Virus record (IMG/VR): IMGVR_UViG_3300035583_000002
Location: 1 to 37,112 of that record
Reading direction: 5' to 3' (one strand)
Source of the DNA: a virus
Length of the DNA: 37,112 nucleotides
Part shown: positions 1 to 37,112 of the stretch, one piece after another
How positions within the stretch are numbered: position 1 is the stretch's first letter
How the letters are laid out: each line of letters starts with the position of its first letter
Notes under the pieces: model-generated
The model's input: only the letters and a program-made list of their open reading frames with translations
Told to the model about the DNA's origin: nothing
Database searches by the model: none
Program-made: the position numbers and the translations under genes

Positions 1-307
1 CATAAACCGAAGCCCCGACCGAAGCCCCGACCGAATCCCAGACCGAAGCCCGGACCGAAGCCCGGACCGAAGCCCTAAATTTCCGGTCAAGAACAATCGT
101 CCTAGTCAATCCCTGCGAGAGTGGAGATCCGCACCACACAATCTTCCGCGGCGGAGGAAGTCCACCCAATCGATAAATCTCTCGGATCGCTGCTTCTGCG
201 CGTGGCCGATCGGCTGGTTCTGCGGATAGGCCGATCGCCAACCAACGATCTCGGAACTCCGAGAACCGCGCAGTTTGCTCAGGCGTGAGACGTTTGATTT
301 TTTTCAT
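1..307 (-). CDS. Tetrapeptide-repeat protein (DUF6745-like), N-terminal part, cut by window edge
   Basis: This reading frame starts at ATG 305-307, five bases after the stop of the 310-612 gene, and runs off the left edge without a stop. The first ~75 residues (beginning MKKIKRLTPEQ, with a later IVWCGSPLSQGLTR motif) are followed by [24 protein letters not shown] and VYG, encoded by the 12-bp repeat. The same repeat and frame continue in from the right edge into the ORF ending at 36165. Joining 307-1 to 36781-36165 gives 308 codons; joining through the 62-bp end overlap (307-68, then 37112-36165) gives 396 codons. Both stay in frame. From memory, an N-terminal LTPEQ/WCGSPLSQGLTR block, a SV-rich repeat and the C-terminal domain match DUF6745 proteins. 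Function unknown; no signal peptide or membrane segment seen. Confidence 0.85.
   Translation of the reverse strand, partial: MKKIKRLTPEQTARFSEFRDRWLAIGLSAEPADRPRAEAAIREIYRLGGLPPPRKIVWCGSPLSQGLTRTIVLDRKFRASVRASVRASVWDSVGASVGASVY
6..75 (-). repeat. Short copy of the 12-bp tandem array (left end)
   Basis: Five exact-length units of consensus ACCGAAGCCCCG plus a sixth that degenerates into ccctaaat. The array is preceded by cataaa, the same flank that precedes the long array at 36782-36787. Bases 1-63 equal 36782-36844, and bases 6-67 equal 37051-37112. This stretch therefore contains both unique flanks with only six units between them, unlike the right end of the window. Confidence 0.95.
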
Positions 308-2825: not shown

Positions 2826-3100
2826 TTGAGTCAATCGGCCAGGACGTGCACGACCATCTAGACGAGCGCGGCGGACCGCTCGCGCCATGCCGTGAGCGGA
2901 TATGCAGCGATTGCGAGGGCGCGATTGACGCGGGGCGCTATCACTCGCTCGGCGGGGAGCTGCTCTGTGACCAATGCGCGCCGGGCCACGCAATCCGGAT
3001 TATCACGAGCACATCCAACGCGGCCGAGCTTCAGGAGGCGATCGACGTGCTCCGCCAGATTGCGCGCGAGTTTGAGGCCGGGGAATGGAGGCGGACGTGA
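2822..3100 (+). CDS. Small zinc-ribbon-like protein
   Basis: 92 residues. Cysteines at about 23, 28, 31, 49 and 52 (CRERICSDC and LLCDQC) make a two-knuckle zinc site around residues 28-52. A helical tail follows (AAELQEAIDVLRQIAREF). Starts at ATG 2822, overlapping the upstream stop. Could be a DNA- or protein-binding adaptor; function unknown. Confidence 0.6.
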   Translation: MIESIGQDVHDHLDERGGPLAPCRERICSDCEGAIDAGRYHSLGGELLCDQCAPGHAIRIITSTSNAAELQEAIDVLRQIAREFEAGEWRRT

Positions 3101-3642
3101 GCCCGGAAGAGAGTGTGTACGAGAAGGCGAGGAATGCGCTGGAACGATTGGCGCAACCACTGCCAGAAAACCCAAGCGCCCGGTGCGCGAGACTCGGTGA
3201 CGATCCTGAGGACGTGATTTCAGCCGCCCTCGACGCAGGCGAGGCGGCCGAGAGGCGCGCAGAGGAAGTAGAGCTGGCAGGCCGCGCGCTCGTGGCGGAA
3301 GCCGAGGTGCAGCGGAATGTGGCCGTGTCAGTTGCGGAGCGTGGAAAATGGCACTCGAATGGGGTCTACCTGCTCGAGAAGGAGCGGCGGATCGCGGCCG
3401 AGGATCGGTGCATGAGGTTGGAGGGGGAAATAGCAGAACTCACATCACAGGAGGGAAACATGCAGGGACAAGAGACGCAGATTGAGAACGCGGCCGCACA
3501 ACCCGGAAGACAATGCCGGGTGACGGAGAAGCTCAAGGGGCTCACGGAGCTGATGCGCGCGAATGGCGTGCACCGGCTCGAGCTCGAGAGTGCTCTGGAC
3601 GGGCAGATGTCGATCCGCGCGATCGAGCTCGAGAAGCGATGA
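3097..3642 (+). CDS. Coiled-coil hypothetical protein with possible internal start
   Basis: 181 residues from GTG 3097 (GTGA overlap); ATG 3085 in the same frame is an alternative. Residues ~45-125 are Glu/Ala/Arg-rich and look like a long coiled coil. An in-frame ATG at 3460 is preceded by a strong aggaggga site. A separate 60-residue C-terminal product (MQGQETQIEN...) might therefore be made from the same frame. Not recognised. Confidence 0.6.
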   Translation: MSPEESVYEKARNALERLAQPLPENPSARCARLGDDPEDVISAALDAGEAAERRAEEVELAGRALVAEAEVQRNVAVSVAERGKWHSNGVYLLEKERRIAAEDRCMRLEGEIAELTSQEGNMQGQETQIENAAAQPGRQCRVTEKLKGLTELMRANGVHRLELESALDGQMSIRAIELEKR

Positions 3643-3795: not shown

Positions 3796-3804
3796 GGTGA
3801 AGTG

Positions 3805-4851
3805 ATGGCTGACGAGATCGTGAGGCCTGAAGGAAAGGATCGACGTTCTGCCTGGTTGGCCGCGCGCCGTGAGGTCGTGACCGCTACCGGACTGGCCTCG
3901 ATTATGCGGATCCCGGACGCATACGGTTCGCCGATGGGTGAATGGCTAGAGAAGATGGGGCGAAGCGAACAGCCGGCCGAGCCGATCGAGCGGATGATCT
4001 GGGGTCAGCGATTGCAGCAGGCGATCCTTGTCGGGTACGCGGAGCGCGAGGGACAGCCAATAGAGCTCGTTGACGAGTACGAGCTGGCCCGGTCCACGAC
4101 CTGCAAGCATCTTGGTGCTTCATTGGACGCGCGACTCCAGGGCGGGGATCGCCGGCCAATCGACGCGAAAAATATCGGCTACCAGGATCCGGTCGTGTGG
4201 GGCGAGCCGTACACCGATCAGGTTCCACCACGGCTCGTCGTGCAGCTCCATGGACAAATGGAGGTCACCGGCGCACCGATCGCGGATCTGGCCGCGCTAT
4301 TCGGCGGCAATCGGCTTGTGATCTACCGGGTCGAGCGTGACGAGGAAGTGATCTCCGCGTGCCGTGAGGCCGCGACGGACTTCTGGGAACGGCATGTCGT
4401 CCCAGACGTTCCACCTCCAGTTGACGGCTCGGACGAGTGGACGCGCTTTTTGAGGTCACGGGCGCAGCGATTCGAAAAGTACCTCGACGTAAAGGATCTC
4501 GATCCGGATTCCTGCGAGAAGGCTGTGGCATCGGTCAATCTGCTCGCCCTCGCCAAGGAAGCGAAGAAAGACGCCGAGGCGCTCGAGGCGCTCCACGGCA
4601 ATCGACTGCGCGACCTGATCGGTGAGAACGCGGGCCTCGTGCTTCCTGGCTCTCGGCTTCATTACCGACAGAACAAGCCATCTTCCGTCGCCGACGATGA
4701 CGGATATATCGCGTATCTGGAGCGTCTGGCCTATCTCGCTGGAGCCAAACCAAAGGCCCTACGGCGGATCAGGGCGCGAAGGTTCACGGGAAGCAAACCA
4801 GGCAATCGACCACTCATCCTGAAAACGGCCAAGGAGGCCAAGCAATCATGA
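3805..4851 (+). CDS. YqaJ-type phage recombination exonuclease
   Basis: 348 residues; gaggtga precedes ATG 3805. Matches the YqaJ/lambda-exonuclease fold: an early RRSAWLAARREVVTATGLASIM segment, the W-G-x-R-L motif near 66-75, D108 in GASLDARL, and the D120-A-K122 catalytic pair in RPIDAKN. The family degrades one strand of linear double-stranded DNA 5'-3' using metal ions and passes single strand to an annealing protein. The next gene, overlapping by four bases, is the likely partner. A helical C-terminal part (about residues 205-348) follows the nuclease core. Likely role: phage recombination and replication. Confidence 0.85.
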   Translation: MADEIVRPEGKDRRSAWLAARREVVTATGLASIMRIPDAYGSPMGEWLEKMGRSEQPAEPIERMIWGQRLQQAILVGYAEREGQPIELVDEYELARSTTCKHLGASLDARLQGGDRRPIDAKNIGYQDPVVWGEPYTDQVPPRLVVQLHGQMEVTGAPIADLAALFGGNRLVIYRVERDEEVISACREAATDFWERHVVPDVPPPVDGSDEWTRFLRSRAQRFEKYLDVKDLDPDSCEKAVASVNLLALAKEAKKDAEALEALHGNRLRDLIGENAGLVLPGSRLHYRQNKPSSVADDDGYIAYLERLAYLAGAKPKALRRIRARRFTGSKPGNRPLILKTAKEAKQS

Positions 4852-5915
4852 GCAACAATCCCGCAGGATCATATTCCCCTCAATCACTCGCGAAGGCGGA
4901 GCCGCAGGGCCTCACCGCCACGAACGAGACCGCCGCCATGGTGCTGGCCGCGCAGGCGAAAGCGCTCGTCTCGGCCCGGTACGAGATCGCCATTCGGCAG
5001 CCGCGCAATCTCGACCTTGTCCGGCAGAAGCTACTCCTGGAGTGTGAGCGGCCCTCGTTCGCGGCCGTGGCGATCTATCGCAAGCCGGTCGGCAAGGGAA
5101 TCGAGGGCCCGTCCATTCGCTTCGCCGAGGCTGCGCTCCAGAACATGGGCAATATCGCGATCGAGACGCCGGCAATCTATGATGACGCCGAGAAGCGGAT
5201 ACTGCGCGTGATCGTGGCCGACATCGAGACAAACGTCACCCACAGCAAGGATGTGACGGTCCAGAAGACGGTCGAGCGCCGGAGCGTGCAGGACGTCGAC
5301 ACCGTGCTCCGGTCGCGCAAGAACAAGGACGGACAGACGGTGTATATCCGTCTCGCGACCGACGACGAGATCCTGAACACCGAGAACGCGCTCGTGTCGA
5401 AGGCGCTCCGAACGACGGGACTCAGGCTGATCCCGGGGTGGCTTATCGACGAGTGCATGGCGGCGGTGCGCGCAACCCGCAAGAAGGGCGACGCGGAGAA
5501 CCCGGACGCAGCGAAGAACAAGCTTTTCGACGCTTTCCGCGCTCAGGGCGTCACAGCCGAGGCGGTCTGCGAATGGCTCAGGCATCCCGCCGACGCAATA
5601 CAGCCCGCCGAGATGGAGGAACTGCGCGGGATCTACACGGCCATCAAGGACGGCGATACGACCTGGGCCGAGGTCATGGACGCGCGGTGGGCAGAGACGC
5701 TCGAGCGGGGCTCAAGAGCTGCGGACAAGGCGAGCAATGCGCTTGATCCGGGGATCGACCCGACGAGCATGAGCACCCCGAAGAAAGGGACGGCCGCGGT
5801 CAAGGCGGCGATCAGGAATACCCAGAAGGCCGATGCGCCCAAAGACGACATCCCGTTCGAATCCTCAGCCGAAGAGGAGAAGCGCAGGGCGGCCGAGCTT
5901 GCGGAGACGGAGTAG
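4848..5915 (+). CDS. Single-strand annealing protein candidate (RecT/Erf-like)
   Basis: 355 residues, starting in an ATGA overlap with the exonuclease. The central region (about 40-200) contains a basic alpha/beta segment with GPSIRFAEAALQNMGNI and IPGWLIDECMAAVRATRK. I associate these motifs with phage recombination proteins found beside YqaJ exonucleases. The tail after ~290 is disordered and ends acidic (SSAEEEKRRAAELAETE), as in many single-strand-binding partners. The annealing role is inferred from family resemblance and gene order. Confidence 0.68.
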   Translation: MSNNPAGSYSPQSLAKAEPQGLTATNETAAMVLAAQAKALVSARYEIAIRQPRNLDLVRQKLLLECERPSFAAVAIYRKPVGKGIEGPSIRFAEAALQNMGNIAIETPAIYDDAEKRILRVIVADIETNVTHSKDVTVQKTVERRSVQDVDTVLRSRKNKDGQTVYIRLATDDEILNTENALVSKALRTTGLRLIPGWLIDECMAAVRATRKKGDAENPDAAKNKLFDAFRAQGVTAEAVCEWLRHPADAIQPAEMEELRGIYTAIKDGDTTWAEVMDARWAETLERGSRAADKASNALDPGIDPTSMSTPKKGTAAVKAAIRNTQKADAPKDDIPFESSAEEEKRRAAELAETE

Positions 5916-36168: not shown

Positions 36169-37112
36169 GTTTCGGTCCTTGGTCGATATTGCTTTGAGTC
36201 GATGATCCCAAATGTCCACGCGACGGCCCGCGCGGCCGTTTCGATATCTGGAGGAACTCTCAAAAAATAGGTCTTCCTCGATCCATCTGATTCGGGTGTC
36301 GAGTTGATCACCTCGACCATGACAATCGGTTCATCGCCTGGCTGCTCTTTACGCCATAGTTTTCCGCGCTTCGATTGATTCACCAGTAGCGCTCCAGAAT
36401 CCTTCAGGTACCGACCGTGGCCATACTGATCGACCATCACACGGCGAATTTCCGCGTTGGTCTCGGAGTCGATTGATTGAATCGTAATCGATTTTGGCGA
36501 CTCAATTATATCCGCCGGAACCCGTACACCATGCACTGCGTAGATCTTCCAGCCGTCCGGATAGGACACAGCTGGACCGCCAATCGAGTGAAGACGACCA
36601 CGATCGTCGCGTGTCAAAAACGAGTGCCTTTCACTGACCCAGCAAATATTTGCGTGTGGGATTGCCCATCCAGCGGATTTCGCCAGTTCGCACAATCCGG
36701 TGATTTTTTCGGTTTCTTTTTCGAGGCCAACCACCTCACGGAAATAATCGTAAAACGACAACCATCCCGCATCGTGCGATCCATAAACCGAAGCCCCGAC
36801 CGAAGCCCCGACCGAATCCCAGACCGAAGCCCGGACCGAAGCCCAGACCGAAGCCCCGACCGAATCCCCGACCGAATCCCCGACCGAAGCCCCGACCGAA
36901 TCCCAGACCGAAGCCCGGACCGAAGCCCGGACCGAATCCCCGACCGAATCCCCGACCGAAGCCCGGACCGAAGCCCGGACCGAAGCCCCGACCGAAGCCC
37001 GGACCGAATCCCCGACCGAATCCCCGACCGAAGCCCGGACCGAAGCCCAGACCGAAGCCCCGACCGAAGCCCCGACCGAATCCCAGACCGAAGCCCGGAC
37101 CGAAGCCCGGAC
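36165..37112 (-). CDS. Tetrapeptide-repeat protein (DUF6745-like), repeats and C-terminal domain, cut by window edge
   Basis: The open frame enters at the right edge and reads the array as V-(R/W/G)-(A/D)-S units in phase, then [19 protein letters not shown], and ends at TGA 36165. TTG 36761 is therefore an internal codon, not the start. The non-repeat C-terminal domain (~205 aa) contains [53 protein letters not shown] and AVAWTFG, which I recognise as DUF6745-type. The N-terminus is at 1-307. No catalytic motif is evident. The gene is third after an HTH regulator and a small His-rich gene, and is followed by GTGA-coupled zinc ribbon and membrane genes. Confidence 0.87.
36787..37112 (-). repeat. 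Long 12-bp tandem array, 27 units plus 2 bases
   Basis: Consensus ACCGAAGCCCCG, with no insertion or deletion through 27 units. Only two positions vary: base 7 (G or T) and base 11 (C, G or A). In the coding frame these give Ala/Asp and Gly/Arg/Trp. From the N-terminal side the (second, third) residues read RA RA WD GA GA WA RA GD GD RA GA RA RA GD GD RA RA WD GA GD GD GA WA RA WD GA GA. The pair RD never occurs. All six frames are open here, so frame choice rests on the flanking protein. Confidence 0.95.

Follow-up and report, generated by a model that had tools for sequence, protein, structure and literature searches.

The window, by which we mean the whole 37,112-nucleotide stretch of viral DNA analyzed here, carries tailed-phage genes for a terminase, portal, major head protein, endolysin and RecE-like exonuclease. 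At both ends a minus-strand open reading frame (ORF) runs off the contig, and each of these ORFs contains a tandem array. The features considered below are the following.

2..307, minus strand: ORF, in our reading the 5' half of a split gene; N-terminal domain followed by six [R/W/G][A/D]SV units, running off the contig end
36165..37112, minus strand: in our reading the 3' half of the same gene; 27 tetrapeptide units followed by the DUF6745 domain, running off the contig end
6..75, minus strand: short array, 6 units of 12 bp
36787..37112, minus strand: long array; 27.2 units as it stands, 28 after closure at the 62-bp end overlap
1..5, no strand: CATAA, the sole bases specific to the short form; the matching place on the long side reads CCCAG
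36787..36844, no strand: 58-bp word with an exact second copy at 37051–37108; contains the short-form junction
3802..4851, plus strand: RecE-like / YqaJ-type recombination exonuclease (phrog_434, E 1e-45; PF09588, E 4e-16)

A DUF6745 gene at the two contig ends

At the left end, CATAAA forms bases 1–6 and six coding units occupy bases 7–75, comprising five full 12-mers and a last unit that merges into TAAATTTCC. CATAAA recurs at 36782 and is followed by 27 full units plus one base up to 37112; the copy numbers given by TRF were 5.8 for the left array and 27.2 for the right. These observations agree with a sequence-only reading of the window, which had described a six-unit copy at 1–75 between CATAAA and TAAATTTCC and a right end with the same flank and at least 27 units. 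The units are of constant length (12 bp) and the array is a coding tandem repeat. When the circle is closed at the 62-bp overlap, the gene is intact, with 395 codons and 28 units; the short form has 307 codons and 6 units. Both preserve the reading frame, as the same reading had proposed; the frame lies on the minus strand. What it overlooked was the context, in which both window ends are parts of one split DUF6745 gene.

The left piece encodes an N-terminal domain of 77 aa (MKKIKRLTPEQ...VLDRKF), 53–69% identical to the N-terminal domains of related contigs L008–L081. The right piece matches PF20530, DUF6745 (E 8e-66; 221.7 bits, curated cut-off 27; profile positions 8–206 of 206), a match which covers the C-terminal domain only and excludes the array and the N-terminal domain. 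Closing of the contig, which we infer from the 62-bp overlap, places the N-terminal domain, the [R/G/W][A/D]SV array and the DUF6745 domain in this order within one ORF. Relatives in IMG/VR that carry the gene inside a contig likewise have N-terminal domain, array and DUF6745 in a single ORF, and in array-less members the two domains are joined directly; an array between them is thus optional. Given this one-ORF layout in relatives and the end overlap, the window ends are almost certainly two halves of one minus-strand gene. The true array may exceed 28 units. An exact 18-mer from the N flank recovered no near-identical relative of the window in IMG/VR.

The ends could instead hold separate array genes that are paralogs of each other, and contig L011 shows that extra arrays can adjoin a DUF6745 gene. 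However, the left piece has only the N-terminal domain and the right piece only DUF6745, which together make one canonical protein. We rejected the paralogous-gene reading, which is hardly credible given these complementary halves, and return to a single split gene.

The RecE-like exonuclease is a candidate agent of repeat recombination. The ORF directly after it (4848–5915) matches phrog_3657, of unknown function, and by its position could encode a partner annealing protein.

Branch points of the assembly graph

Bases 1–63 are identical to 36782–36844. The last 62 bases (37051–37112) are identical to bases 6–67, yet bases 1–5 differ and the window lacks a direct terminal repeat. The length of this overlap, 62, equals k-1 for k=63. 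The short array contains no sequence absent from the long array, and it is the product of joining both copies of the 58-bp word. Repeated words of this size are unexceptional here: the longest in the array is 59 bp, at chance level relative to shuffled unit order (50.8 ± 8.6), and chance alone would produce repeats of about five units in an array of this kind.

With arrays at both contig ends, the window might have genuine genome termini with a short terminal repeat, the array being part of a packaging or terminal-redundancy signal. The first and last 63 bases, however, are not identical. Many relatives carry the gene intact in mid-contig, and in other relatives the contig ends fall at differing positions within the array, a pattern typical of assembly breaks. 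This very improbable reading was also rejected, on account of the intact mid-contig genes, and we consider the ends below as products of assembly.

De Bruijn graphs were built from a single 28-unit circle and from both the 28-unit and 6-unit forms. The value k=63 was deduced from the contig ends, and its use for the window's record is presumed; it appears in the assembly k-list documented for JGI data (PMC6243002). The 28-unit circle alone gave zero branches at node lengths of 61 or more. At node length 63, the graph of both forms branched at exactly two nodes, outward at the one that begins at position 1 (= 36782) and inward at the one that begins at position 6. Both branch points coincide with the ends of the window, and the contig reads as short edge, genome, long edge. 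Because a lone 28-unit circle has no branch at k=63, a second path is needed, and it is very likely that one existed in the assembly graph. This path may represent real reads, a PCR contraction or a join made at smaller k.

The sequence-only reading had offered two sources for the two lengths, expanded and contracted forms in the phage population or alleles mixed by the assembler. The contig ends fit a two-length assembly bubble exactly, but the contig cannot separate a real allele from a contraction during library preparation or assembly. In a pure artefact, only the long array would exist, and the short copy would be a chimeric assembler join at smaller k or a contraction by the polymerase in library PCR. 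We place this at somewhat below an even chance. The short form adds no sequence of its own, its junction lies inside a 58-bp exact repeat and only five bases back it; at node lengths up to 58 the long-only graph also branches, at the 58-bp word, and tandem repeats are a known source of assembly errors (PMC6868369). Against it, the unbranched circle at k=63 means that the break requires a second path, and the assembly runs unbroken through a longer repeat, of 59 bp, within the same array.

Breaks and length differences in related phages

Contig ends were found to concentrate beside the arrays. Among 54 array-bearing contigs found via the C domain, 16 had an end no more than 500 bp from this domain on its array side, against 2 on the opposite side (binomial p = 0.0013); at the same distance, neither side had an end in any of the array-less relatives (0/17). 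Among 79 contigs found via the N domain, the array side had 34 ends within 600 bp and the other side 2 (p = 2e-8). Additionally, at least 18 other phage contigs (8 + 10) of about 38–83 kb carry the gene halves at opposite ends, and exact terminal overlaps were found of 126 bp (L150/L191), 108 bp (L095/L062), 60 bp (L092/L022) and 35 bp (L108/L189). From the concentration of ends on the array side and the split halves in other contigs, we conclude that arrays of the DUF6745 phage gene often break assemblies, and the window is one more case. This explains a recurrent artefact, in which phage genomes with the DUF6745 array gene are frequently split at the repeat. Near-complete genomes are thus catalogued as linear fragments, and the protein is recorded as two pieces that seem unrelated. 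In three contigs (L012, L127 and L139) the array shifts the frame or has irregular units, and the gene looks broken or mis-assembled.

Array length in the family ranges from none to well over 100 units, and closely related records differ from each other. L072 and L074 have 35 and 30 units in different order; their N-side flanks are identical (500/500 bp) and their C-side flanks nearly so (1986/2000 bp). L073 taken with L096, which represent a third record and an independent assembly, reproduces the L072 array except for one unit, which indicates that the assemblies are reproducible. A second comparison sets L131 and L132, at 33 units each, against L138, at 29; over the 5.5 kb leading up to the point where the arrays differ, a single SNP separates them. 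The L138 contig ends in the C flank and shares exactly 126 bp with the long form, a length of k-1 if k is 127; it displays the same bubble anatomy as the window at this deduced k. Such a bubble requires reads of at least 128 bp carrying the short junction, which argues against a pure artefact. Comparison of these records shows real copy-number variation between nearly identical phages (35 against 30 units, 33 against 29), whereas the window itself shows only an assembly bubble. For population polymorphism the window contig alone is weak evidence, and the family as a whole gives better evidence.

The other main source of a short path is a real minority allele, in which the sampled population would include phages of about 6 units alongside those with the long array, the difference having arisen by recombination between the 58-bp words. 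The two-path graph at k=63, the frame kept in both forms, the allelic length differences in close relatives and the RecE-like exonuclease encoded by the phage are all consistent with this allele, whose probability we judge to be a little under one half. On the other side, the contig stops at CATAA without extension into the left flank, and the short form is only 75 bp long. The short form was therefore not common, since longer reads would be expected to have extended the contig. Arrays also agree wherever they overlap in four groups of near-identical records (L046/L047, L131/L132/L141, L033/L034 and L172/L177), which indicates that they are not wildly unstable. We give about even odds that the 6-unit form existed in phage particles.

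Our best explanation for the window is that a near-complete tailed-phage genome was opened inside its DUF6745 array gene by a two-length graph at k=63, with a probability of roughly 0.78 for this explanation as a whole. In it, the same pair of flanks would have been connected in the graph by a 28-unit path and by a 6-unit path, and the latter would omit 264 bp by joining the two copies of the 58-bp word. As to the manner of length change, we infer that arrays gain and lose whole units through recombination or slippage between near-identical words, possibly assisted by the phage RecE-like exonuclease. Such changes would usually be multiples of 12 bp and would keep the frame.

Unit composition, protein family and known systems

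We surveyed 74 arrays with 1685 units (L006–L171 and the window), the unit counts being non-independent events. Base 1 of the unit varies in 74/74 arrays and base 5 in 71/74. Bases 7, 8, 10 and 11 are invariant in all 74, a result partly due to Ser/Gln and Val being fixed in the search pattern. At the silent bases 9 and 12, variation within an array is confined to 3 and 15 of the 74 arrays, respectively, whereas phages differ freely from one another at the silent bases and use 17 combinations of these codons. R, G and W are all present in 70 arrays. Arginine is encoded by AGG only in 46 arrays, by CGG only in 22 and by both in 2, and the second variable site is C/A only in most arrays. Lag analysis found the unit order to be near random, with mild avoidance of WW and GG neighbors and no clear period. 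This is the pattern of turnover that homogenizes each array, silent bases included, and leaves variability at only two positions, both of which change the amino acid (base 1, R/G/W; base 5, A/D). A diversity-generating retroelement was considered and is a poor fit, given one Arg codon per array and a second site limited in most arrays to C/A.

We regard it as unlikely that the array acts as a rapidly reshuffled, frame-safe protein code with about six unit types, near-random order and variable number. If this were true, length and order variants, including the 6-unit form of the window, would let a binding surface change under diversifying selection, with no need for a retroelement.

Other arrays differ in their units. 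The array of MW202476 ([W/G/R/E]SSL) has other fixed residues and the same W/R/G choice. So does gene 38 of the Mycobacterium prophage prophiGD102-1 (L193:1182–2627), a DUF6745 gene with roughly 50 [W/R/G][G/D]QL units in a completely sequenced prophage. Arrays of a second class, built of [x][x]AV units (e.g. VDSAVYSAV), occupy the same place between both domains in L160, L161, L165–L167, L169, L170, L172, L173, L175–L177, L179 and L181. L011 has three more tetrapeptide arrays, of 79, 41 and 37 units (1–943, 1530–2021 and 2937–3376), around its array-less DUF6745 gene. Bacterial DUF6745 genes (L102 and the plasmid hits H10 and H11) adjoin radical SAM genes of the STM4015 family or STM4011 family, and are possibly part of a cellular operon related to the phage gene.

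AlphaFold modeling of an array-bearing member left the array unusable (pLDDT about 30), and the array-less homologue from L011 was predicted at pLDDT 92.6 and pTM 0.80. A Foldseek search with the array-less core found no PDB match below E 0.4; the Z scores from VIA-align were low (3.6 at most) and covered only part of the C-terminal half, a result uninformative on function. The match in BFVD was the DUF6745 protein of Microcystis phage LMM01. Profile matches from PADLOC, NCBIfam and PDB sequences were discarded as weak or as lying on the low-complexity array. Our literature and structure searches found no function or solved structure for DUF6745, and the literature collection searched contained nothing on DUF6745 or the DSVRDSV motif; broader searches on phage tandem repeats gave no match to the family. 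The most likely product is a phage protein built of two domains plus a linker or binding segment that can be extended. The comparison suggests that many phage proteins, as a group apparently undescribed, differ in the number and order of their units between near-identical phages. With two variable amino-acid positions per unit and a changing number of units, the role of such coding repeats becomes testable.

The window gene resembles other DUF6745 phage members in its PF20530 C-terminal domain and in the layout of N-terminal domain and array found in dozens of contigs, a layout shared by gene 38 of prophiGD102-1. It differs from them in being split over the contig ends. As in described assembly errors and breaks at tandem repeats (PMC6868369), contigs here break off within the array, and terminal overlaps and collapsed copies are seen; in contrast to those errors, the bubble holds two in-frame lengths, matched by allelic length differences in relatives. 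A biological parallel is the intragenic tandem repeat of E. coli tolA (PMC3477136), also an in-frame coding repeat whose copy number differs between strains. In tolA, multi-unit in-frame contractions occur by recombination at 6.9e-5 and are RecA dependent (PMC3477136). The phage repeat belongs to another protein in another host, with a 12-bp unit, dozens of units and two fixed variable positions.
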